NCBI GenBank assembly: GCA_945862235.1 | Contig: CAMAYU010000004.1 | Location: 1 to 64,000, forward strand | Origin: Schlesneria paludicola DSM 18645 | GTDB taxonomy: Bacteria > Planctomycetota > Planctomycetia > Planctomycetales > Planctomycetaceae | DNA: 64,000 nucleotides | Direction of reading: 5' to 3' | Part shown: positions 31,776-45,290 of the stretch, in pieces | Layout of the letters: every line of letters begins with the position of its first letter | Numbering within the stretch: position 1 is the stretch's first letter | Notes under the pieces: model-generated | Told to the model about the DNA's origin: nothing | The model's input: only the letters and a program-made list of their open reading frames with translations | The model's database searches: none | Made by a program: the position numbers and the translations under genes

Positions 31776-33659
<1,884 letters not shown>

Positions 33660-33756
33660 GATTCTCTCGCCTCTCGGCTAAACAAACTGCGGCCAATTCG
33701 CCGCTTCAATCTTAGTTTCGTCGTCTTGATAGTCTTTGGTCTTGTGGCATTCGCCT

Positions 33757-33801
33757 TGTCCCCTCGCCACGGCTTTGCGGGGAGAGAGTTAGGGTGAGGG
33801 G
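33757..33801. repeat. Family A palindromic repeat, copy 4
   Basis: gtcccctcgccacggctttgcggggagagagttagggtgaggggg. Confidence 0.8.
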
Positions 33802-33868
33802 GCTTTCTCTTCAGCCGAATCTCGCTCGCCTTTGGCTTGCGGTAAAACGAAGCCGGACAACAGACCGT

Positions 33869-34702
33869 CTATTTCGCTTCCGCTGGCTTGCGGAACCCGT
33901 CATCGAACTGCTCGGCCGATGCCTGTTCCTTCCAAGCATCGAAGTCCGCGTCTGACCGCGCGACGACCTTGGCCTTCATCTTGTAGTGCCCCCAGCCACA
34001 CAACTCGGCACAGAGCATTTCGTAATCACGGTTTTCGAGGGCATCGAACCAGACCGGAATCTTCAAACTGGCCACGGCGTCTTGCTTGATCCGCAGTTCC
34101 GGGATGAAGATCGCGTGCTGAACGTCATCCGTCCGCAGCGTGACCTCGACCGGACGGCCCGAAGGAATATGCAATTCATTCACGCTATAGATGTCATCCG
34201 GCTGCGGCTGCGGCTGGAGCGGCTTCCCCTTGGCAGGATACCGAATCCGCCACTCAAACTGCCGAGCCGTCAATTCGGCAACCGGCTCGGGCCGGACCAT
34301 TTTTCCATGCGAGTCCCGAATCGCACCCTTGATGCGGAACTGGGCCCACACGTCGAGTTGATAGAGGGCGATGAACAGCAGCACCGCGGACGGAACGATG
34401 GTCCAGATCACTTCGAGGCTGTGGCTCCCGTGAGAAAACAATGCCTTCTCTTCGGGCTTAATCGTCGCTCCGCGCCACAGCACATAGCCCAGCGCCGCTT
34501 GAGTCCCGATGAATGTGACCGCCACGATGATCAGGATCAGGTGAAACAGGTCATCAATCTTCCCGCCGAGCGTCGAGTGAGCCTTGCCATCGCCGGGGAA
34601 CCACCAGTTCCAATCGGGCGCGAACCAGCACAGGGCCACCGCGATCACGGCCGAAAACACGAAGAACAGGGACCAAAGCTTACCCACGGCATTCGCCTTC
34701 AC
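33869..34702 (-). CDS. ctaC: Cytochrome c oxidase subunit II (CuA)
   Basis: DVQHAIFIPELRIKQD and CAELCGWGHYKM CuA ligands; no fused haem domain. Confidence 0.95.
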   Translation of the reverse strand: MKANAVGKLWSLFFVFSAVIAVALCWFAPDWNWWFPGDGKAHSTLGGKIDDLFHLILIIVAVTFIGTQAALGYVLWRGATIKPEEKALFSHGSHSLEVIWTIVPSAVLLFIALYQLDVWAQFRIKGAIRDSHGKMVRPEPVAELTARQFEWRIRYPAKGKPLQPQPQPDDIYSVNELHIPSGRPVEVTLRTDDVQHAIFIPELRIKQDAVASLKIPVWFDALENRDYEMLCAELCGWGHYKMKAKVVARSDADFDAWKEQASAEQFDDGFRKPAEAK

Positions 34703-34768: not shown

Positions 34769-36325
34769 TCACTTGGCTTCCGGCATATCCGTCGCCACCA
34801 CATGCCCGCCCGCATTCGTCTTCGCAGGTTGAGGCGACTGGTACTGGAGACTCATCACAAAATTGACGATGTCCCAGATCTCTTCATCTTTGAGTGCCGT
34901 CTTACCGAAGCCCGGCATCGGAGTCCCCTTGATACCGGCATACAATCTGCGAAACACATCGACCGGACGCCGCCCGCCACGGTACTGACCGAGTGTCAGA
35001 TTACGAGGCTGGAGCGGGTTGCCCCACGCATCGTGCAGGCCGCGTCGTGGATACAGCTCTTCCGTTCCGGGCTTCTTCCAGAAGTCTTCCGTCGCCGCGC
35101 CATTACCCTTGCCCAGCAAACCGTGGCAGGTGTAGCACTTCGTTTTGTCGGACATGTAGAGCAGACGACCTCGCTCGCGGGACGCCGCATCATCGGCAAC
35201 ACGCGGAACCGTCGGCGCGATCCGGCTTGCTTCGTCATCAGCTCTGGTCCAAGCCTCGGCCAGAAACGATGCCGTATCCTCCACCGCTTGGTCGAGGTCA
35301 CTCGCCTGAAACTTGGCGAACGCTTCCGTGGCAATCTTGCGTGCGTCAGTCAGCTTGATCGGCGCATCGGGCTTCACGGCATCCTTGTCACCCGCCTTCA
35401 ATGTGGCGTCGTATGCCACCTTGGCTGCGTCGAAAGCCGTCTTGGACTTTTTGACCGTGTCTACGATCGAATCTTCCGTGAAGTCGCCCAAATCGTCATC
35501 CGTTCGCTTTTCAAACTCGCCCCGCATCGCCAACCAACGCACGTACTCGACGACTGACTTCGTTTCCTCTTCACCGAGCAATAGGAACGACGGCATGTAC
35601 GTCCCCGGAATGCCGTACTTCACAACACGATGCAAGTCGTCACGACTCACTTTCTCCGCAGAGAGAGTTGAGGTGAATTTGAAGACGCCGAGCCGATAGT
35701 CGCGCGGACGTGGGTTGAGGAACTGAGCCGTCGAACCGTTGCCATCACCACTCACACCATGACAGTGCATGCAGTTCTTCATGTAGACCGCGCGGCCCTT
35801 TTGGAGTGCATGACCAAAACCCACGATCAACACGTCCCCCACACCGGGAGCAGGCTCAGCCGAGCCAGACCACGTAAGCGTCTTGGTCTTCGTGTCGTAG
35901 GTGTCCACTGTGTCGGCAGCCGCTTTTTCACCGGCACGAGTCCCCGTGAGCCACAACACCGATGCACCAGAAGCCAACTTGGACACATCCCCTTCGACGG
36001 ACACAGAGATCGTCTTGGATGCAGGTTGAACTCCCTCAGCCGCAGCAACCACGCTCGCCTTGGCCCCGCCATAAGCGACGGGAAAGCGTTCCCACGCCAC
36101 GAGGTTGTGAGGCGTGCCGAAGCCGTCTTCGAGCGTATCCTTGATTGCCTTCCGGGCGACGGGGATCAATTTTTGAGTCGCCTCGCGGTAGGAGAACTCA
36201 GCCTTCGGGCCGGTACCACAACCCGCCAGACCACTCGCGATACCCAACGCCAACCCACAGACAAGCTGCCAAGGGGCGGTCGTTACGCTGCGATGATTTG
36301 AACTGTGCCGAAACATCATGAACAC
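34769..36325 (-). CDS. Dihaem cytochrome c lipoprotein
   Basis: 518 aa; LAGC lipobox, CMHCH and CYTCH haem motifs. Confidence 0.9.
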   Translation of the reverse strand: MFMMFRHSSNHRSVTTAPWQLVCGLALGIASGLAGCGTGPKAEFSYREATQKLIPVARKAIKDTLEDGFGTPHNLVAWERFPVAYGGAKASVVAAAEGVQPASKTISVSVEGDVSKLASGASVLWLTGTRAGEKAAADTVDTYDTKTKTLTWSGSAEPAPGVGDVLIVGFGHALQKGRAVYMKNCMHCHGVSGDGNGSTAQFLNPRPRDYRLGVFKFTSTLSAEKVSRDDLHRVVKYGIPGTYMPSFLLLGEEETKSVVEYVRWLAMRGEFEKRTDDDLGDFTEDSIVDTVKKSKTAFDAAKVAYDATLKAGDKDAVKPDAPIKLTDARKIATEAFAKFQASDLDQAVEDTASFLAEAWTRADDEASRIAPTVPRVADDAASRERGRLLYMSDKTKCYTCHGLLGKGNGAATEDFWKKPGTEELYPRRGLHDAWGNPLQPRNLTLGQYRGGRRPVDVFRRLYAGIKGTPMPGFGKTALKDEEIWDIVNFVMSLQYQSPQPAKTNAGGHVVATDMPEAK

Positions 36326-36384: not shown

Positions 36385-37272
36385 TTACTTGCCCAGCTTG
36401 CTGGCTGGCACCTTGATCGAGACTTCGTTGTTGTCGCCCGGCTTGATCTCCACCACGAGAGCCTTCTCAACCATCTTGCCCGCTTCGTGCCAGACCTTGA
36501 ACTCGTGCTTTCCGGCTGGCAAGTCCTTGATCTCAAACGTCCCATCGGCAGCGGAGACAGCCGCGAATGGATGATCAAGCGGCAGGTGATAGGCGGTCAT
36601 CCACGAATGAATGTCGCAGCCGACCTGAAACGGCTCCTTCTCAGCCTGACCGTACACCAAATCAACACCGCCTCGATCATTGGGCTGAACGACGCTATTG
36701 AACGCCGAATTCTTTTTTGGATAAGTGTGCGTATTGTGGGCGGCACCATCCGCATTGAGAACCTTCACGGCCTGCCTGACCCGCATCACCATCGCATGCG
36801 GCGTGAAGATGCAAACCTTCTGATCAAACAAAACGGGATCACCCGCAGGCGGAACCACGGCCCCTTTGGGAATCTTGTCGAGGTAAATGAAGACATTCGA
36901 CAAGCCCCCGTCCTTCACGAGAATCGACTCGTTCGGAATGGCCTCAGCCCCGCAGACGCTCGGGTCCTTCGCGGCCCCACCCTTGACGAACAGCGGCGCG
37001 AGCGGAGCGAAATCTCCGACGAACTCGACTCGACCCTTGAGAGTCCCAACTCCCCCTTCCGACACAGCAACATCACCGGTGGCTGCAGCAACACTCGTGT
37101 CTGTCGCAGCAGCAACCGCGTCCTTCGATGCCGCGCGATACTTCACAGTCGTCTGTGAGTTCGCGCCGCTCGACAACGGTGCGCTGCAACCCACGCTCAA
37201 CGTCAAGGACACAAACGCGCAGGCAAAAACTCCCACGCTCTTCTGCACCAAACGAGTCATCTGGCTTCGCAT
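36385..37272 (-). CDS. Cupredoxin-like lipoprotein with carboxypeptidase-regulatory-like region
   Basis: MRSQMTRLVQKSVGVFACAFVSLTLSVGC lipobox; AHNTHTY and VGCDIHSWMTAY possible type-1 Cu ligands; start overlaps the upstream stop (TGATG). Confidence 0.75.
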   Translation of the reverse strand: MRSQMTRLVQKSVGVFACAFVSLTLSVGCSAPLSSGANSQTTVKYRAASKDAVAAATDTSVAAATGDVAVSEGGVGTLKGRVEFVGDFAPLAPLFVKGGAAKDPSVCGAEAIPNESILVKDGGLSNVFIYLDKIPKGAVVPPAGDPVLFDQKVCIFTPHAMVMRVRQAVKVLNADGAAHNTHTYPKKNSAFNSVVQPNDRGGVDLVYGQAEKEPFQVGCDIHSWMTAYHLPLDHPFAAVSAADGTFEIKDLPAGKHEFKVWHEAGKMVEKALVVEIKPGDNNEVSIKVPASKLGK

Positions 37273-40200
37273 CACTGTCCACCTCCCGCAGTGGCTGCCG
37301 CTGGCTTCGGTGCCTCGGCCGTCTTGCCTTCGCGTTCCAACTGTGTGTGATAATTCACCAGCGCGTCTCGCAACGAAACCGTCTGTTTCAAGCCATCCGC
37401 CCCGAACAATTGTGGATAACGGGGCGTCTCGCCGGCCTTCTGCTTCGGCAGCGGAGACGGCATCGACGTGTACGGCGTCACCCACTTAGGGTTGAACAAC
37501 CACAACTGCAACCAATCAGGCTTGAGTCGTTCAGCGGAAAGATCGAGGTCCGGCCCGCGAATATCCTTGGCGGGATCACTAATCACCACCTGCCGACCAC
37601 CAACCGAGTGGCACTTGATGCAGAGGTCACCATTCAACATCTGCCACGAATCATGCAAGTATTGGCCCTTCTTATCTGGGTACGCCTTGTCAAACTCGTC
37701 GCCCACTTCGTTCAAATAGGCTGGCTCCCGTTCCTCGATCAGCTGATACGGGAAGGGCGTTCCATCGACGGCGGCGAAGTAGTTGGCCAACGCCTGCGCT
37801 TCTTCGTCACTCAGATTGAACCGTGGCATTCGCAGCACGGTGGTGTGCCGCAGCTTGCCAGGATTCTTGAGGAAGTTGAACAACCACGGTGTCTGAACCT
37901 TGGTTCCCTCTTTGTAGAGCGGTGGAGGCGACATTTGCCAAGCCAGTGATTTTTCCTTGGCCTTCTTGTTGTTCACGAGCCGCTCCACAAGCCACTCGGC
38001 GTACTTGCCACCCCGTGCCGCTTCGATCTTGTCCAAGCTGGTAGCTGGGAAAATGAACTTGTAAGTCGGGAAAAGTTCTTTCCCGGCAACCCGCAATGTT
38101 TCCCAAAGCTCGACCACGTACTCTTGCTCATCCAACGGCAGATCGACTTCCGGCTCACCTGCCACCAGGCCGTGGAACTGAACGATCGGCAGTGACTTCA
38201 TCGAGTCGCCCACCTTGACCGACTTCATTTCGCCAGTCGTACCGTCACGCATCGGCCGCAGCTTCTTAAGCAACGCGACCGCCTCCGGATACTCAATGGA
38301 CGTATCCGACGCAGTGATCCCGTCCAAATCCGCCGCGTAGCGAATTTTGGGGAGTACCAACATGTGACAACCGGAACAGTTGAACTGCTCGATCAGTTTC
38401 TCACCGCGAATCCGAGCCCCAGCCGAACCCGATGGGTTGTACAGGTATTCCGCTGCTGGTGGTTCCGCGACCAACCCGAGAACAAACGTTGCGATGTCAT
38501 CGATGTCCTCTTCCGAAAATGGGAACTTGGGCATCCGTAGCCGGTCGTCGTAAGGCTTGGTCTCGATCATCTTGAAGTCGTAGCTACGCGGCTGGCGTAG
38601 TTTTTGCCACAGGAATCCGGGCCGCCCGTGATGCAGCAAACTTTCGACATAGAACGCAGCCGAGTTCTCTCGAACACGCGACGCTTCGGTCTTGAACTCA
38701 TCGCGCTTCGCACGGCCAATTCCCACTTCGACACGATCGAGTAAAGACGCATCAGCGGTCAATGTGAACGTCTGTTCGTGTCCATCCCGGATCACGCCCA
38801 CAGCCACATGACTGCCGACCACAGTCCGCGCAAGCGCGGCTTCATACTGCTCAATATCCAATACTGGAGTTTTGTCCAAACTTACGATGACATCGCCGGT
38901 CTTTAGGCCACTTTTATTAGAATCACCGCCCTTGGTGACTCGAACACCAGTTACCGATGCCGCATTCCCCGTCAGCGACTCAACCTTCACGCCGAGATCC
39001 GGCTCACCGTGGTGGTGCAGGTATTCGTGAATGTGCTCGAACGCCAAACGCGACCGATCCTTCTTGCCCCAGTCTTGCAAGGCGGTTCCGATCGGCCGGG
39101 CTTGCTCAAAGTTCGGGATGTCGTGGCAGCCATAGCAGCCGTAACGCGTGATCGTTTTGCGGCCGAGGTATGTGAGCTTCCGATTCTTCCACTCGGTATC
39201 GTCCAGCTCAGCCTGGCCCTTCGCGAGTAACTCGATCTCGTCGCCCTTTATACGATCCGCAAGAACTGGGTATTCCCCCTTGTTCTTATCATCTGACCCT
39301 TTGATGAAGCCCTCAATCTGCGATTTCGTGAGTACCTTCCCAAGGAAGTGAGACACGAGTTCATCGAGCAGGGCATCGTCCACTGCGGGAACTTCAAACG
39401 GTGTCGCGGGCATTGGCCTGTAATCTGCCGGCTTTTCCTCCGGCTTGAGTTTCAACAAGAAGGCAGCGATGTCCGCAGCGGGATCGGTTTCAACACCGTC
39501 AACTTTCTCGACTTCGAGCGGCTGCGCGGGCATCCGTGTACGTGGGTGATAACGGCTCGGTTCACGCACCCACGTGTAGAGCCAATCGAAGCCAAAGTCG
39601 CCCGCCTTGAGCTTCTCATGAACATTGGAAAGCTCGGGGCCAAAAGTCATGTCCAGACCTTTAACCGCATCGTGTGTGTGGCAGTTAACACAACCTTTGG
39701 TCGCGAAGAATTCTTTGCCTCGCTCGGCACTCGGAATCGAATCCGGCAGCAATCTTGCCAGAGGCTTGTAGGCGAGCTGGTCATCGTTAGCAGTGTTCTG
39801 CTGGAACTCGGTCGACTTGGCGAGCAGATAATGCGTGATCGCCGCGATTTCCACCGGGTTGAACTTCTGGCCGTGAACATCCGACTGGTTGTCGAGTTTG
39901 AAGAACTGGGGCATCCGCGTCGTCGGACGGAACCGTTTCGGTTCTTCCGTCCACGAAGCCACGAAGCCAGCATCAACCTTCAGAGCGAGATGCCGCAACG
40001 ACGGACCGACTTTTCGCATCTTGCCAGCCACCTGATTGGGGTCGGCAGCGATGGCGACCGCCTCTTCAGGAGTGTTCGGTTCGAGACGCAGATCGGGACC
40101 GATAATCTTGGTCGCTTCAAAACCCTGAATTTCGTGGCAACCGAAGCAACCGTAGGTTTCGACCAACCGATGACCGCGCGCGACTTTCGGAGCGGTAGGA

Positions 40201-41390
40201 CCGAACTTCGGATTCACCGCCAGTTCAGTCACGTTCACATGGCACTTGATGCAGGACGATTCCTCGAACCGCTTCGGGTTCATCGGACGTTCCCAGAAGT
40301 GATTGTCGAACCACTTGTGTTCGTCAGCCCATTCGTGCATCTGAGCCGGATCGTTCGGCGTGTGTGAGGCATTCTGGAACGAGGTCCCCGCTCCCTGTCC
40401 TTCGTGGCAGACGGTGCAGCCGAACTTGGGCAACGGATGCGGACTGGTCGCACCGAGATAGACATCGAGCCGTGGATGAGACGCAAACGGATGCGGGAAC
40501 TTTCCTTCGGCCGTCTGCTTGCCATCTTTGGAGAGACCGTGAGGGAAGGCTCCGGCAACCGAAGTCTTGACCGTGTCATCGACCGAATCGATCATCGAGT
40601 GGCAGGTACGGCAGCGGTCGAACCGGGACACCACGCCCATGCCACCCAGCGGGAATTCCAAGCGGGGCAACCAGTCCTGAGTAATCCGCTCAGGCGAATT
40701 GAAACCGTCAATAACCGGCAACAGCATGAGGTTACGTTTGGTTTTTGACAGCCAAGTGTCCGGATCGATCTTATTCAGAGCCGCGTGAAGCAGGACAATC
40801 TTGGTCTGCTCACCTTTCAATCCCTTTTGAGCCTTGTCACGCTCCCCAGTGACGGCACTGAGACTGGCCTTCGCGTCGTCTAGCTTGAGCTTATTCTCAG
40901 CGTTGTCTGACTCCATCTTGCTGACTGCGGCTTCAACGACCTCATATTCATCGGTGCGTCGCTTGAGAGCGTCACCTTGCAAATTATCGCGAATGGCAAG
41001 GTTGTAGTTTGCACGCGCCACGTCTCGCCTGGCTCGCTGGACCTTCAGATCGCGCAAGTGATTAGCAGACTTATCGCTGGCGGATTTGGCCGCCAGCGTG
41101 AGCGACTTGACCTCATCATGCCGCTTCGCCAATTCAGCTTCCGCAGCTTTGATCTTCGCCTCTAGCTCAGCAACATTCTGCTTATGTTCTGGCGCAGCCT
41201 TCTCAGCCGCTTCGCGCGACCGGATCCGCTCGCCCTGATACTTGAACGCCTGGCGCTGGTACGTGCGCCATTCGTCGTTGTTATCGGCGTACATCATCCA
41301 CGCCGTGGTGAACAACAACAGGAGCGCGCTGGCACAAAAGACGCGGTGCATCAGCTTGGGGCTACGGAGATAGTCGTCAGTCGCCGGCAT
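37272..41390 (-). CDS. Membrane-anchored octahaem c-type cytochrome with coiled-coil and PDZ domain
   Basis: 1372 aa; eight CxxCH (CRTCH, CTVCH, CIKCH, CFGCH, CVNCH, CYGCH, CSGCH, CIKCH); PDZ region VTKGGDSNKSGLKTGDVIVSLDKTPV; N-terminal TM and ~180-aa Lys/Glu/Ala-rich coiled coil. Confidence 0.92.
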   Translation of the reverse strand: MPATDDYLRSPKLMHRVFCASALLLLFTTAWMMYADNNDEWRTYQRQAFKYQGERIRSREAAEKAAPEHKQNVAELEAKIKAAEAELAKRHDEVKSLTLAAKSASDKSANHLRDLKVQRARRDVARANYNLAIRDNLQGDALKRRTDEYEVVEAAVSKMESDNAENKLKLDDAKASLSAVTGERDKAQKGLKGEQTKIVLLHAALNKIDPDTWLSKTKRNLMLLPVIDGFNSPERITQDWLPRLEFPLGGMGVVSRFDRCRTCHSMIDSVDDTVKTSVAGAFPHGLSKDGKQTAEGKFPHPFASHPRLDVYLGATSPHPLPKFGCTVCHEGQGAGTSFQNASHTPNDPAQMHEWADEHKWFDNHFWERPMNPKRFEESSCIKCHVNVTELAVNPKFGPTAPKVARGHRLVETYGCFGCHEIQGFEATKIIGPDLRLEPNTPEEAVAIAADPNQVAGKMRKVGPSLRHLALKVDAGFVASWTEEPKRFRPTTRMPQFFKLDNQSDVHGQKFNPVEIAAITHYLLAKSTEFQQNTANDDQLAYKPLARLLPDSIPSAERGKEFFATKGCVNCHTHDAVKGLDMTFGPELSNVHEKLKAGDFGFDWLYTWVREPSRYHPRTRMPAQPLEVEKVDGVETDPAADIAAFLLKLKPEEKPADYRPMPATPFEVPAVDDALLDELVSHFLGKVLTKSQIEGFIKGSDDKNKGEYPVLADRIKGDEIELLAKGQAELDDTEWKNRKLTYLGRKTITRYGCYGCHDIPNFEQARPIGTALQDWGKKDRSRLAFEHIHEYLHHHGEPDLGVKVESLTGNAASVTGVRVTKGGDSNKSGLKTGDVIVSLDKTPVLDIEQYEAALARTVVGSHVAVGVIRDGHEQTFTLTADASLLDRVEVGIGRAKRDEFKTEASRVRENSAAFYVESLLHHGRPGFLWQKLRQPRSYDFKMIETKPYDDRLRMPKFPFSEEDIDDIATFVLGLVAEPPAAEYLYNPSGSAGARIRGEKLIEQFNCSGCHMLVLPKIRYAADLDGITASDTSIEYPEAVALLKKLRPMRDGTTGEMKSVKVGDSMKSLPIVQFHGLVAGEPEVDLPLDEQEYVVELWETLRVAGKELFPTYKFIFPATSLDKIEAARGGKYAEWLVERLVNNKKAKEKSLAWQMSPPPLYKEGTKVQTPWLFNFLKNPGKLRHTTVLRMPRFNLSDEEAQALANYFAAVDGTPFPYQLIEEREPAYLNEVGDEFDKAYPDKKGQYLHDSWQMLNGDLCIKCHSVGGRQVVISDPAKDIRGPDLDLSAERLKPDWLQLWLFNPKWVTPYTSMPSPLPKQKAGETPRYPQLFGADGLKQTVSLRDALVNYHTQLEREGKTAEAPKPAAATAGGGQ

Positions 41391-41507: not shown

Positions 41508-42896
41508 TCAGATATTAAAGAACCACTCTGGAATCGCCACGATGTACTTTAGATTGATCGCCCACCTCAAAACCATTTTGATCGGCAGCGACATCATGAA
41601 CAGCATCAAATTGGCGAGAACCATATACCGGAGAAAGCCCATCTTGGTGAAGAACTTCCGGAACACGGTCGCCGCCATCAGCGGCGGTAACGCAAACAAA
41701 TAAGCCGCGACCGCCACCAATCCCAGCCACTCACGCAGCAGGATCATGGAGATTTGATAGTTCAGGCTGGACCCCGCTGGAGCGACTGGCAACTGCTGAC
41801 CACACACCGACAGCCAGAACCACTCGGACAAATTGACGTTGTTCAAGAACTCCAGCTTATGAACATCCCAGTACTCATACGGGCTGAAGAAGTTCCAGTT
41901 AGGACCTCGCAGGAATGTCCCCAATACGATCATCGCAACCCATAGCGGCAGGAAGCCGAACAGGAACGTCGAGACCGCAAATTTGCGTTCATTGAACGTG
42001 TAGTAACCATTGCCCAGCTTATTGAAGTCGATGTACGGGATCGCCATCAAACCGACCAGGATCACACTCGGCAGCACCACGCCCGCCATCCACGGATCGA
42101 AGTAAACGAGCATCTCTTGGAGACCGAGGAAGTACCACGGAGCCTTCGACGGATTGGGCGTCTTCGCCGCTGATGCCGGTTCCTCCAAGGGAGCCTGTAA
42201 CACGATGCCCCACGCCACCAAGATCGCCGTCACGACAACCATGCAGATCAACTCGGTGTACACGAGGTCTGGCCATGTCAGCACCTTCTCGTTGTTTTCT
42301 TGCTCGAAGAGCGGTCGGCCTTCCGCCTTACGCTGGTCGTTATCAACCGACTTCTTGAAGTAGAGCCAAGTGAAGAAGCCGACAATGTAGAGCATCGCCA
42401 CGATCGGGACGTTGTCGGGCTTGCCCACGATCTGCCGGAAGTCGTAGTCGGTCACGCTGAGCGTCATAAACAGCATCGACAGATTAAGCAGAATCCAACC
42501 CGCAGTGTCGGTCGTCCACTTCTTGCGGAACACGATCATCGCAACATAAATCGTCGTCGATCCCACGAAGAACGCGACGGGATTCGAGCCCGCGTTGATG
42601 GGAGCCTTCAGAATCTCGGGCATTTTCAGCAGGAACACCTGCGGACTATTGAGACGAGTCAGATGAGTGACAGCAACGACAAACAGCATGGCGGCGTAGA
42701 CCGCCCAAAACGCCGCCACCGGGATATCAATCCCCTTGCCGAGCAGCCCACCAAGCCTCAAGCGGAAATCACCATCCATCGCCATGCTGCGACGAACCCA
42801 CCACGAGTTCATCACGAACAGCAGCAAATAGACCCAACCCAGCCCGAAGATTACGGACGCTGTCAGATCAGGGTTGTGAAGCAGATTCGTTTGCAT
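41508..42896 (-). CDS. Cytochrome b C-terminal (subunit IV-like) protein with extra N-terminal TM domain
   Basis: 462 aa; TPNPSKAPWYFLGLQEMLVYFDPW; about five additional TM helices upstream. Confidence 0.87.
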   Translation of the reverse strand: MQTNLLHNPDLTASVIFGLGWVYLLLFVMNSWWVRRSMAMDGDFRLRLGGLLGKGIDIPVAAFWAVYAAMLFVVAVTHLTRLNSPQVFLLKMPEILKAPINAGSNPVAFFVGSTTIYVAMIVFRKKWTTDTAGWILLNLSMLFMTLSVTDYDFRQIVGKPDNVPIVAMLYIVGFFTWLYFKKSVDNDQRKAEGRPLFEQENNEKVLTWPDLVYTELICMVVVTAILVAWGIVLQAPLEEPASAAKTPNPSKAPWYFLGLQEMLVYFDPWMAGVVLPSVILVGLMAIPYIDFNKLGNGYYTFNERKFAVSTFLFGFLPLWVAMIVLGTFLRGPNWNFFSPYEYWDVHKLEFLNNVNLSEWFWLSVCGQQLPVAPAGSSLNYQISMILLREWLGLVAVAAYLFALPPLMAATVFRKFFTKMGFLRYMVLANLMLFMMSLPIKMVLRWAINLKYIVAIPEWFFNI

Positions 42897-42975: not shown

Positions 42976-43767
42976 CTAGAGTGGCTGGCTAATTCCGCCG
43001 TCTTTGCGGACTCGCCAAAAATGTATCGCGATCAACAGCGAAACCACCAACGGAATGGCCACGCAATGCAGGATATAAAACCGATTCAAAGTCGCCTCAC
43101 TCACGAAGCGACTCCCCAACAACAGGAAGCGAGCGTCGCTGCCGTTGGTGATCAGATCGAACCCGCCGATATTGAGCAGCTGAGCACCGGGGCCTTCATA
43201 ACCCAGCACCGGCGTCGCACGAGCCATATTAGAACCGACGGTGATCGCCCAAATCGCCAACTGATCCCAAGGCAGCAGGTAGCCGGTAAACGAGAGCAGC
43301 AGCGTCAACACCAGCAGCAGCACGCCGATCACCCAGTTGAACTCACGCGGCGGCTTGTAGCTACCAGTCAGAAACACGCGGTACATGTGCAGCCAAACCG
43401 TGATGACCATCGCGTGCGCCGACCAACGGTGAATCTCACGCATAATTCCGAGCGTCGTCACGTCACGCAGGGCCAAGATGTCGTTGAAAGCAAACTCCAG
43501 CGTCGGCCGGTAGTAAAACATCAACAGCACACCGGTGATCGTCTCGACGAGAAACAGGAAGAACGTAATTCCACCCATGCACCATGTGTACGAGAGCGCA
43601 ATCCCCTGCTGCTTAATCGAGACCGGATGCAGATGCAGGAAGAAGTTCGTCAGCATCACGACGATGCGGTTACGCCGATCGACGGGGGCTGGGTGACGGA
43701 AGATCGACTTCCAAATCTGCGAGCCGCGAATGTAGTCGCCAACAGACATCAATGAACCCTCAAACAT
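42976..43767 (-). CDS. Cytochrome b N-terminal (b6-like) protein
   Basis: HRWSAHAMVITVWLHMYRVF and HCVAIPLVVSLLIAIHFWRVRK bis-His pairs; WCMGGITFF Cys. Confidence 0.94.
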   Translation of the reverse strand: MFEGSLMSVGDYIRGSQIWKSIFRHPAPVDRRNRIVVMLTNFFLHLHPVSIKQQGIALSYTWCMGGITFFLFLVETITGVLLMFYYRPTLEFAFNDILALRDVTTLGIMREIHRWSAHAMVITVWLHMYRVFLTGSYKPPREFNWVIGVLLLVLTLLLSFTGYLLPWDQLAIWAITVGSNMARATPVLGYEGPGAQLLNIGGFDLITNGSDARFLLLGSRFVSEATLNRFYILHCVAIPLVVSLLIAIHFWRVRKDGGISQPL

Positions 43768-43859
43768 GCGGGGAAGCCACCACCACCTACCCGACCTCGC
43801 CGCCAACTCAAGCCACAGGCAAACGAAAAACAGCTGCTTTGCGACAACTTAACCCAACG

Positions 43860-44873
43860 TCACGCCAATTCGATGAACGACGCCGCATCAACCCACTGAC
43901 CCATCTCTTCCTGAAACTTCACACTCTTATCAACCTCCAGCATCCCCTCAGCGACTCGCAAGCCGACCCGCTCAAGCGGCCGCGGCGCGGGACCCTCAAA
44001 GTTCACACCCGTCATATAAAAACCCGAACCGTGGCAAGGGCACTTGAATTTCTGCTCGCCATCCAGCCAACTCGGGGTACAACCAAGATGCGTACACACA
44101 GAAGCTAGCGCGACAATCAAATTACGACCTTCATACTGATCGGTGTGAACAATCCAGACGCCGTATTGATCTTTCCACTTGTTGGACACCGAGTTGAGCG
44201 GGTAGTCCGAAGCCGGCCCCACTTTGAATTTGGACGGAGGTTCAACAAGAACATTGGGAAACATAAACCGGGCCGTACCGAGCGTCGCGATTCCCGTGAC
44301 CGCAGTGATGCTCGTCCAAGCCAAATTGAAGGCCGACGAGAACGGAGCACAGGCAACCACAATCGCCGCCATCAAGAAGCCGCGACGAGGCTGCTCAACT
44401 TTCCTTGAGGCCACCACGGGCTTCGAAGGCATGGGCGGAGCAACAACAGGAGCCTTCCCAGATGCGACCGCCGGTGCCGGAGCCGCCGCCATCGCACCAG
44501 CCTTCCCTTCACGCACCGCCTTCAGCATGTCCTGAACTGACGGACGCGGGCCCGCAGCAGCAGCAACAGGCTTCACCGTCGCAACAGGAGCAGACTCACC
44601 CGCTGCAACCGCAGGCGATGCCGCAGCACTAGCCCCCTTCGCGCGAATCGCCGCCATGATGTCCTTCGTGGAACCAGGCTTGGCTACAGGAGCCGCAGCG
44701 ACCGGAGACACCGCAGCTTGAGCAGCCGCTGCCACAGAAGAGACAGCCTCAGGAGCGGGTGTTACAGCAACAGCTTCAGCGACTGCACTGTCACTCGACG
44801 CCGCTGCTGCTGCCGCTTTTTGTGCTCGGATCTTGGCGAGGATATCAGCGGTGGAAGGTTTCTTCTCGTCCAT
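43860..44873 (-). CDS. Rieske 2Fe-2S protein with long Ala/Pro-rich repetitive N-terminus
   Basis: CTHLGC and CPCHGSGF cluster motifs; start at [18 protein letters not shown]. Confidence 0.93.
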
Positions 44874-45290
44874 TTCGACTCGCTTCCGCGTGGCAGGAAG
44901 TGCGATGGAATGCACAAACAATGTGCGTTTGCCCCATTCGCCAGCCTTGTGTCTCGGCGGATTCTGGCAACATCCATTCGGACTGACAACCACATGAACT
45001 GAGTCGTTCTGGAATTTCTCAGAAGCAGGAATGAAACCCGCAACACAACGGCAGGAATCACCTCACATTAACCCTGATTTCGAGTACACGATTCAGGCCT
45101 CCTTGATGAACACCGCGCAGCCTTTGATCCCCAAACCGCCACCCCCATGACGATACGCGAGACTGACTTTGTTTCGAGTGGGCAGTCGGATTACAACGGG
45201 CGAACTCATCGGCGAAACCACACGCGACTTACCACGCCTCAAACCTCTCGCGCACGAAAGAGCTTCGTGACCATCGACTCCCGGCTCGCC

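Follow-up and report, generated by a model that had tools for sequence, protein, structure and literature searches.

PDZ domains of bacteria are known from proteases, from secretion and from magnetosomes. In the HtrA-type domains (DegS/HtrA) the carboxylate of the ligand is held by a loop of the pattern X-phi-G-phi.

The magnetosome proteins MamP and MamE combine a PDZ domain with c-type haem (PMC3971196), and theirs is the only combination of a PDZ domain with covalently bound c-haem found in the literature searched. That search, conducted mostly outside subscription journals, returned no PDZ domain in a respiratory multihaem cytochrome and no report that brings together PDZ domains, multihaem cytochromes and Planctomycetes. 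The papers that combine PDZ domains, c-type cytochromes and Planctomycetes are magnetosome papers only. In MamP and MamE the PDZ domain stands beside one to four small magnetochrome domains, whereas in the protein described here, a respiratory subunit with eight haems, the PDZ domain interrupts one of the cytochrome c domains. The window (the whole 64,000-nucleotide stretch that was analysed) encodes this subunit on the minus strand, within an operon of respiratory genes:

43860-44993, minus strand: Rieske iron-sulfur protein (PF00355; Cytb6fFeSPetC, E=5e-16)
42976-43806, minus strand: cytochrome b, N-terminal half, b6-like (PF00033, E=3e-41; ExtP/b6 models)
41508-42896, minus strand: cytochrome b, C-terminal half, subunit IV-like (PF00032; ExtQ)
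37272-41390, minus strand: octahaem cytochrome c with an inserted PDZ domain, 1372 aa, ATG start (open reading frame, eight CxxCH motifs, homologues)
36385-37272, minus strand: lipoprotein, probably of the cupredoxin type (from its sequence and its place as a conserved neighbour; no confident Pfam match)
34769-36325, minus strand: dihaem cytochrome c lipoprotein (two CxxCH; PF00034, PF13442)
31776-34702, minus strand: cytochrome oxidase subunits II and I (COX2 and COX1 in Pfam)

Beyond coxI the operon continues with a CtaA-like protein, followed by a CtaB-like protein and subunit III, the last two named by eye. The order Rieske, cytochrome b, cytochrome b, octahaem protein, lipoprotein, dihaem protein, coxII and coxI is the same in relatives with and without the PDZ domain. 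The co-encoded Rieske and cytochrome b genes are conserved neighbours across the family, as befits a subunit of a Rieske/cytochrome b system, and this gene order suggests that the octahaem protein forms a physical complex with their products. The lipoprotein gene is listed as 36385-37485 with a GTG start. The true start is probably the ATG at 37272, which overlaps the stop codon of the octahaem gene and yields a product with a lipoprotein signal. This probable cupredoxin-type gene is duplicated in six lineages (L082, L094, L096, L119, L129 and L132).

Rieske/cytochrome b complexes with a multihaem subunit have a like gene order (Rieske, split cytochrome b, multihaem cytochrome c), and the two b subunits of the window match the ExtP/ExtQ and the b6/subunit IV models. 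Unlike the known multihaem subunits of such complexes, the present protein holds eight haems in a single chain and a 170-residue helical hairpin. It shares its haem number with the octahaem hydroxylamine oxidoreductases (HAO), tetrathionate reductases (OTR) and nitrite reductases; here, on the other hand, three haems are followed by five separate monohaem domains, and no Pfam match to the HAO/OTR-type or nitrite reductase families is found at E<=1. The magnetochrome domain (PF18509) scores 14 bits against a cut-off of 30.4 (E=0.039).

The reading frame and the eight haem motifs claimed in the earlier note are borne out: the 1372-residue protein contains exactly eight CxxCH motifs, at residues 260, 325, 380, 415, 567, 752, 1005 and 1257.

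40599-40613, minus strand: haem 1, CRTCH, invariant in the alignment
40404-40418, minus strand: haem 2, CTVCH (motif, alignment)
40239-40253, minus strand: haem 3, CIKCH (motif, alignment)
40134-40148, minus strand: haem 4, CFGCH; the invariant Met493 is the distal ligand candidate
39678-39692, minus strand: haem 5, CVNCH, with the invariant Met620; Pfam Cytochrom_C at residues 555-649
39123-39137, minus strand: haem 6, CYGCH, at residue 752
38532-38534, minus strand: Met953, distal ligand candidate of haem 6, invariant in 82 of 82 sequences
38364-38378, minus strand: haem 7, CSGCH, with the invariant Met1188
37608-37622, minus strand: haem 8, CIKCH, with the invariant Met1310

In alignments of homologues all eight CxxCH motifs are invariant, together with Met493, Met620, Met953, Met1188 and Met1310, and His305, His318 and His343 are conserved in the region of haems 1-3. 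This set of candidate axial ligands is that of a c-type cytochrome subunit. Conservation points to a c7-like, histidine-rich cluster for haems 1-3 and to a row of five monohaem cytochrome c domains with His/Met ligation for haems 4-8. In Pfam the protein has cytochrome c domains plus a single PDZ_2 domain. An AlphaFold2 (AF2) model of residues 205-1372 has a mean pLDDT of 89.7 and a pTM of 0.87. The octahaem scaffold of this model has no match in the PDB at E<=0.001 with Foldseek, and a profile search of PDB sequences recovers single cytochrome c domains only, with the whole scaffold unmatched. The family is an uncharacterised one, widespread in the Planctomycetota and without a solved counterpart, in organisms whose respiratory chain is poorly known.

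The PDZ domain proposed in the earlier note is real and sits, as had been claimed, in an electron-transfer subunit adjoining Rieske and cytochrome b genes.

38751-39002, minus strand: PDZ domain, residues 797-880 (site A), inside the haem-6 domain (PF13180, E=1e-11; HtrA PDZ by Foldseek)
38988-38999, minus strand: DLGV, residues 798-801, the X-phi-G-phi loop for carboxylate binding, conserved in all 14 site-A proteins

The PDZ_2 profile (PF13180) matches residues 797-877 with E=1e-11 and 45.3 bits against a cut-off of 27; PDZ_6 and PF00595 match the same segment more weakly, and the NCBIfam MamE profile matches it with E=1.5e-6. The earlier note had named a failure to match PF00595 or PF13180 as grounds for refutation; both profiles match. 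The top Foldseek matches of the AF2 model in the PDB are all PDZ domains of the HtrA family (9pno, DegQ, DegP, DegS), the best being 9pno_B with an rmsd of 2.4 A and a target TM of 0.72. The HtrA/DegP/DegQ/DegS domains are the closest relatives of the insert in sequence and fold; the trypsin-like protease domain of these proteins is absent from the octahaem protein (Pfam, E<=1). The eight motifs had been described as divided by a PDZ domain around 38740-38990. The division stands, with the domain refined to 38751-39002, and it splits the haem-6 domain itself: the insert lies between the CxxCH at residue 752 and the invariant Met953. The spacing from CxxCH to Met in haem 6 is 201-221 residues in proteins with the PDZ domain versus 114-128 in PDZ-less relatives.

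Homologues of the octahaem protein, weak or strong, are matched in 219 of 294 genomes of the phylum, some of the weak matches possibly being generic cytochrome domains, and strong matches occur in 92 of 120 genomes of the family. Exactly eight CxxCH motifs are found in 110 of 111 homologous frames, a set that includes some genomes present twice, in two collections; the remaining frame is cut by a contig end. By these matches the octahaem core is common across the planctomycetes. The PDZ domain is far more restricted. At site A most aligned family members carry a short loop (GEPDGSSTxxRVExA, about 15 residues), versus about 96 residues in the window protein. The 14 proteins with a site-A PDZ form a single clade with 100% support, made up of Schlesneria and one sister genus, and all 14 members of the clade retain the domain. 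On this tree the site-A PDZ is a clade-specific insertion, gained once in Schlesneria and its sister genus. Other lineages have a PDZ domain at a second position, which is free of it in the window protein:

39381-39443 (approximate), minus strand: site B, the loop between the haem-5 domain and haem 6

A site-B PDZ, after haem 5, occurs in 20 of the 81 relatives on the tree. Pfam was run on five of these domains, four of which score above the cut-off and the fifth just below. Their distribution is patchy, and well supported branches force at least four changes. None of the 81 relatives has a PDZ at both sites, 47 have none at all, and the domain is absent from all 24 homologues outside the family. 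In the PDZ tree the site-A domains are placed with four of the site-B domains (81/94), and 15 other PDZ domains of the genome are separated from the A and B domains as a whole (75/92). An alternative tree with a separate site-B clade is not rejected (AU p=0.28). The PDZ tree is compatible both with two recruitments and with one domain that moved within the gene, the latter being a possible course of events. It can be proposed, tentatively and with somewhat less than even confidence, that planctomycetes repeatedly insert HtrA-type PDZ domains at two loops of the octahaem protein, possibly moving the same domain, and so hold the C-terminus of a periplasmic partner beside a defined haem. If so, docking guided by a PDZ domain would be met here for the first time in a chain from quinol to oxidase. 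With a peptide-binding domain at two sites of a respiratory haem chain, it could be tested directly whether electron partners are steered by peptide recognition.

Other inserts are present in the family. At site A, which corresponds to window residues 797-882, three proteins of one other genus (g7; L079, L080, L081) carry an insert of another kind, about 88 aa long. Extra inserts of about 80-300 aa lie between haems 7 and 8 in L085, L132, L142 and L144 and between haems 4 and 5 in L123 and L143; those in the haem 7-8 and haem 4-5 loops have no confident family match.

The explanation that is favoured here, with a probability of roughly 0.55, is that the octahaem protein is the output subunit of a b6-type complex and that its PDZ domain is an accessory, periplasmic and lineage-specific tether. 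The protein would serve a Rieske/cytochrome b complex of the b6 type as its c-type output subunit, and the complex would in turn feed the co-encoded aa3-type oxidase. One helix would tie it to the membrane and the helical hairpin would act as a stand-off. The HtrA-type PDZ, inserted into the haem-6 domain loop in one clade, would then bind a periplasmic protein, by its free C-terminus or by an extended tail, and keep it near the haem chain. The architecture, the conservation of the ligands, the operon, the insertion with its clade distribution, the second site, the selection and the HtrA-type fold are observations; peptide binding, the tether role, the electron path and complex formation are inferred.

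The profile and fold of the PDZ domain, its kept loop, its low dN/dS, the longer haem-6 spacing, the two insertion sites, the constant operon and the invariance of the CxxCH motifs and the five distal Met count for the tether. At site B the X-phi-G-phi pattern is present in 17 of 20 domains, and L145 and L146 are added by eye, which gives about 19 of 20. The dN/dS of the PDZ domain in close pairs is 0.03-0.22, values that are rough since dS is saturated in some pairs; they lie below 1, yet above the core in most pairs. Because the loop is kept and dN/dS is low, the domain is probably functional. Against the tether count the fast divergence of the PDZ (mean identity 43% versus 72-78% for the core, a rate about equal to that of the hairpin), the loss of the SPAxxAGL helix segment from some site-A domains, and the operon C-termini, none of which changes with the PDZ. 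The domain carries no cofactor and, since most relatives lack it, appears dispensable for electron transfer; it is probably a docking accessory outside the electron wire proper. The proposal that the PDZ wires the respiratory complex is not supported: eight haems and the same operon occur together, with no PDZ, in 47 of the 81 relatives.

The fast divergence is also what a structural or self-association module would show, one that has no ligand and serves to space the cytochrome or to make it a dimer. MamP is a precedent for such a role, as it combines PDZ and c-haem and its PDZ-PDZ contacts make a dimer (PMC3971196); helix A is lost in some members, and non-PDZ inserts occupy the same and neighbouring loops. 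A pure spacer, however, would find the carboxylate-binding loop superfluous, and the loop is conserved with few exceptions at sites A and B. A purely structural role is unlikely, at perhaps one chance in five.

Docking of a partner's C-terminus had been suggested in the earlier note, with the Rieske protein or the dihaem lipoprotein as examples. The general part is plausible, the domain being of the HtrA type with a carboxylate-binding loop under purifying selection; the partners that were named lack a PDZ-linked signature. Extended to cytochrome b, the idea that the domain docks one of these termini and so wires the complex draws on the adjacency of the genes in one operon and on termini that are formally acceptable PDZ ligands: the C-terminal cytochrome b subunit ends in FFNI, and V or A is the last residue of many Rieske proteins. 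The PDZ may also have been recruited to an already existing terminus, for which the cytochrome b FFNI is the best candidate. PDZ-less relatives, on the other hand, have the same C-termini. The cytochrome b ends (FFNI, ISQPL) are alike across all groups, that of the C-terminal subunit being class II in 46 of 46 PDZ-less relatives. The Rieske C-terminus is hydrophobic in 35 of 44 genomes without the PDZ versus 10 of 13 with it, and in all 14 PDZ-A genomes the last residue of the dihaem protein is polar. No C-terminus change linked to the PDZ was found for Rieske, cytochrome b, dihaem protein, coxI or coxII between genomes with and without the domain. This lack of covariation weakens the idea of docking to one of these termini, which is improbable, and the dihaem protein and the Rieske protein are not supported as the docked partner.

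For the lipoprotein at 36385-37272 an apparent link was rejected: its C-terminus is hydrophobic in 25 of 42 PDZ-less versus 1 of 33 PDZ genomes, but the trend follows the tree, and corrected for relatedness (only four independent pairs) it vanishes. No stand-alone PDZ gene that could compensate was found near the PDZ-less operons of the family. Two planctomycetes that are more distant encode a separate PDZ protein, probably a secreted one, just downstream of the octahaem operon (L162:5408-6463 and L163:14416-16074).

Were the PDZ a near-neutral passenger in a loop that tolerates insertion, this would account for the patchy distribution, for the various other inserts of this protein and for a dN/dS above the core; the reading is very improbable given that dN/dS is still 0.03-0.22, that the loop motif is conserved and that the domain is retained in 14 of 14 clade members. 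Recruitment of a periplasmic factor for assembly or quality control, such as a protease of the HtrA type or a factor for haem maturation, is the least probable reading: the domain is of the HtrA type and the g7 insert at site A weakly resembles PpiC (Rotamase_2) in two of three sequences (E=0.001 and E=0.018, both below the cut-off), but no specific partner is known and the likeness is sub-threshold and absent from the third sequence.

For the tether that is favoured, the N-terminal part of the protein supplies the proposed anchor and stand-off.

41280-41360, minus strand: N-terminal membrane helix, residues 11-37 (AF2 model; hydrophobic sequence)
40767-41273, minus strand: antiparallel helical hairpin, residues 40-134 and 140-208 (AF2, pLDDT about 98)
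40986-41045, minus strand: conserved hairpin tip, residues 116-135 (KVQRARRDVARANYNLAIRD; entropy; motif in 62 of 82 family proteins by a strict pattern)

A second AF2 model, of residues 1-335 (pLDDT 91), covers this region. The expected transmembrane anchor corresponds to helix 11-37 in the model. The charged coiled coil of about 180 residues is modelled as long helices that fold back on each other into a hairpin of about 170 residues. In a simple heptad Fourier test the 3.5-residue signal is only weak, and the label of coiled coil is one of predicted structure. The mean column entropy is 1.1 at residues 121-130 versus 2.6-3.0 across the remaining hairpin. The conserved residues of the tip (R122, D123, R126, A127, R134, D135) are kept regardless of the presence of the PDZ. 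The tip is likely to be a docking site, and it is a stronger candidate than the PDZ for the contact with a constant partner in the complex. Its motif, RxxRDVARANYDLxVRD, stands out in an otherwise variable hairpin.
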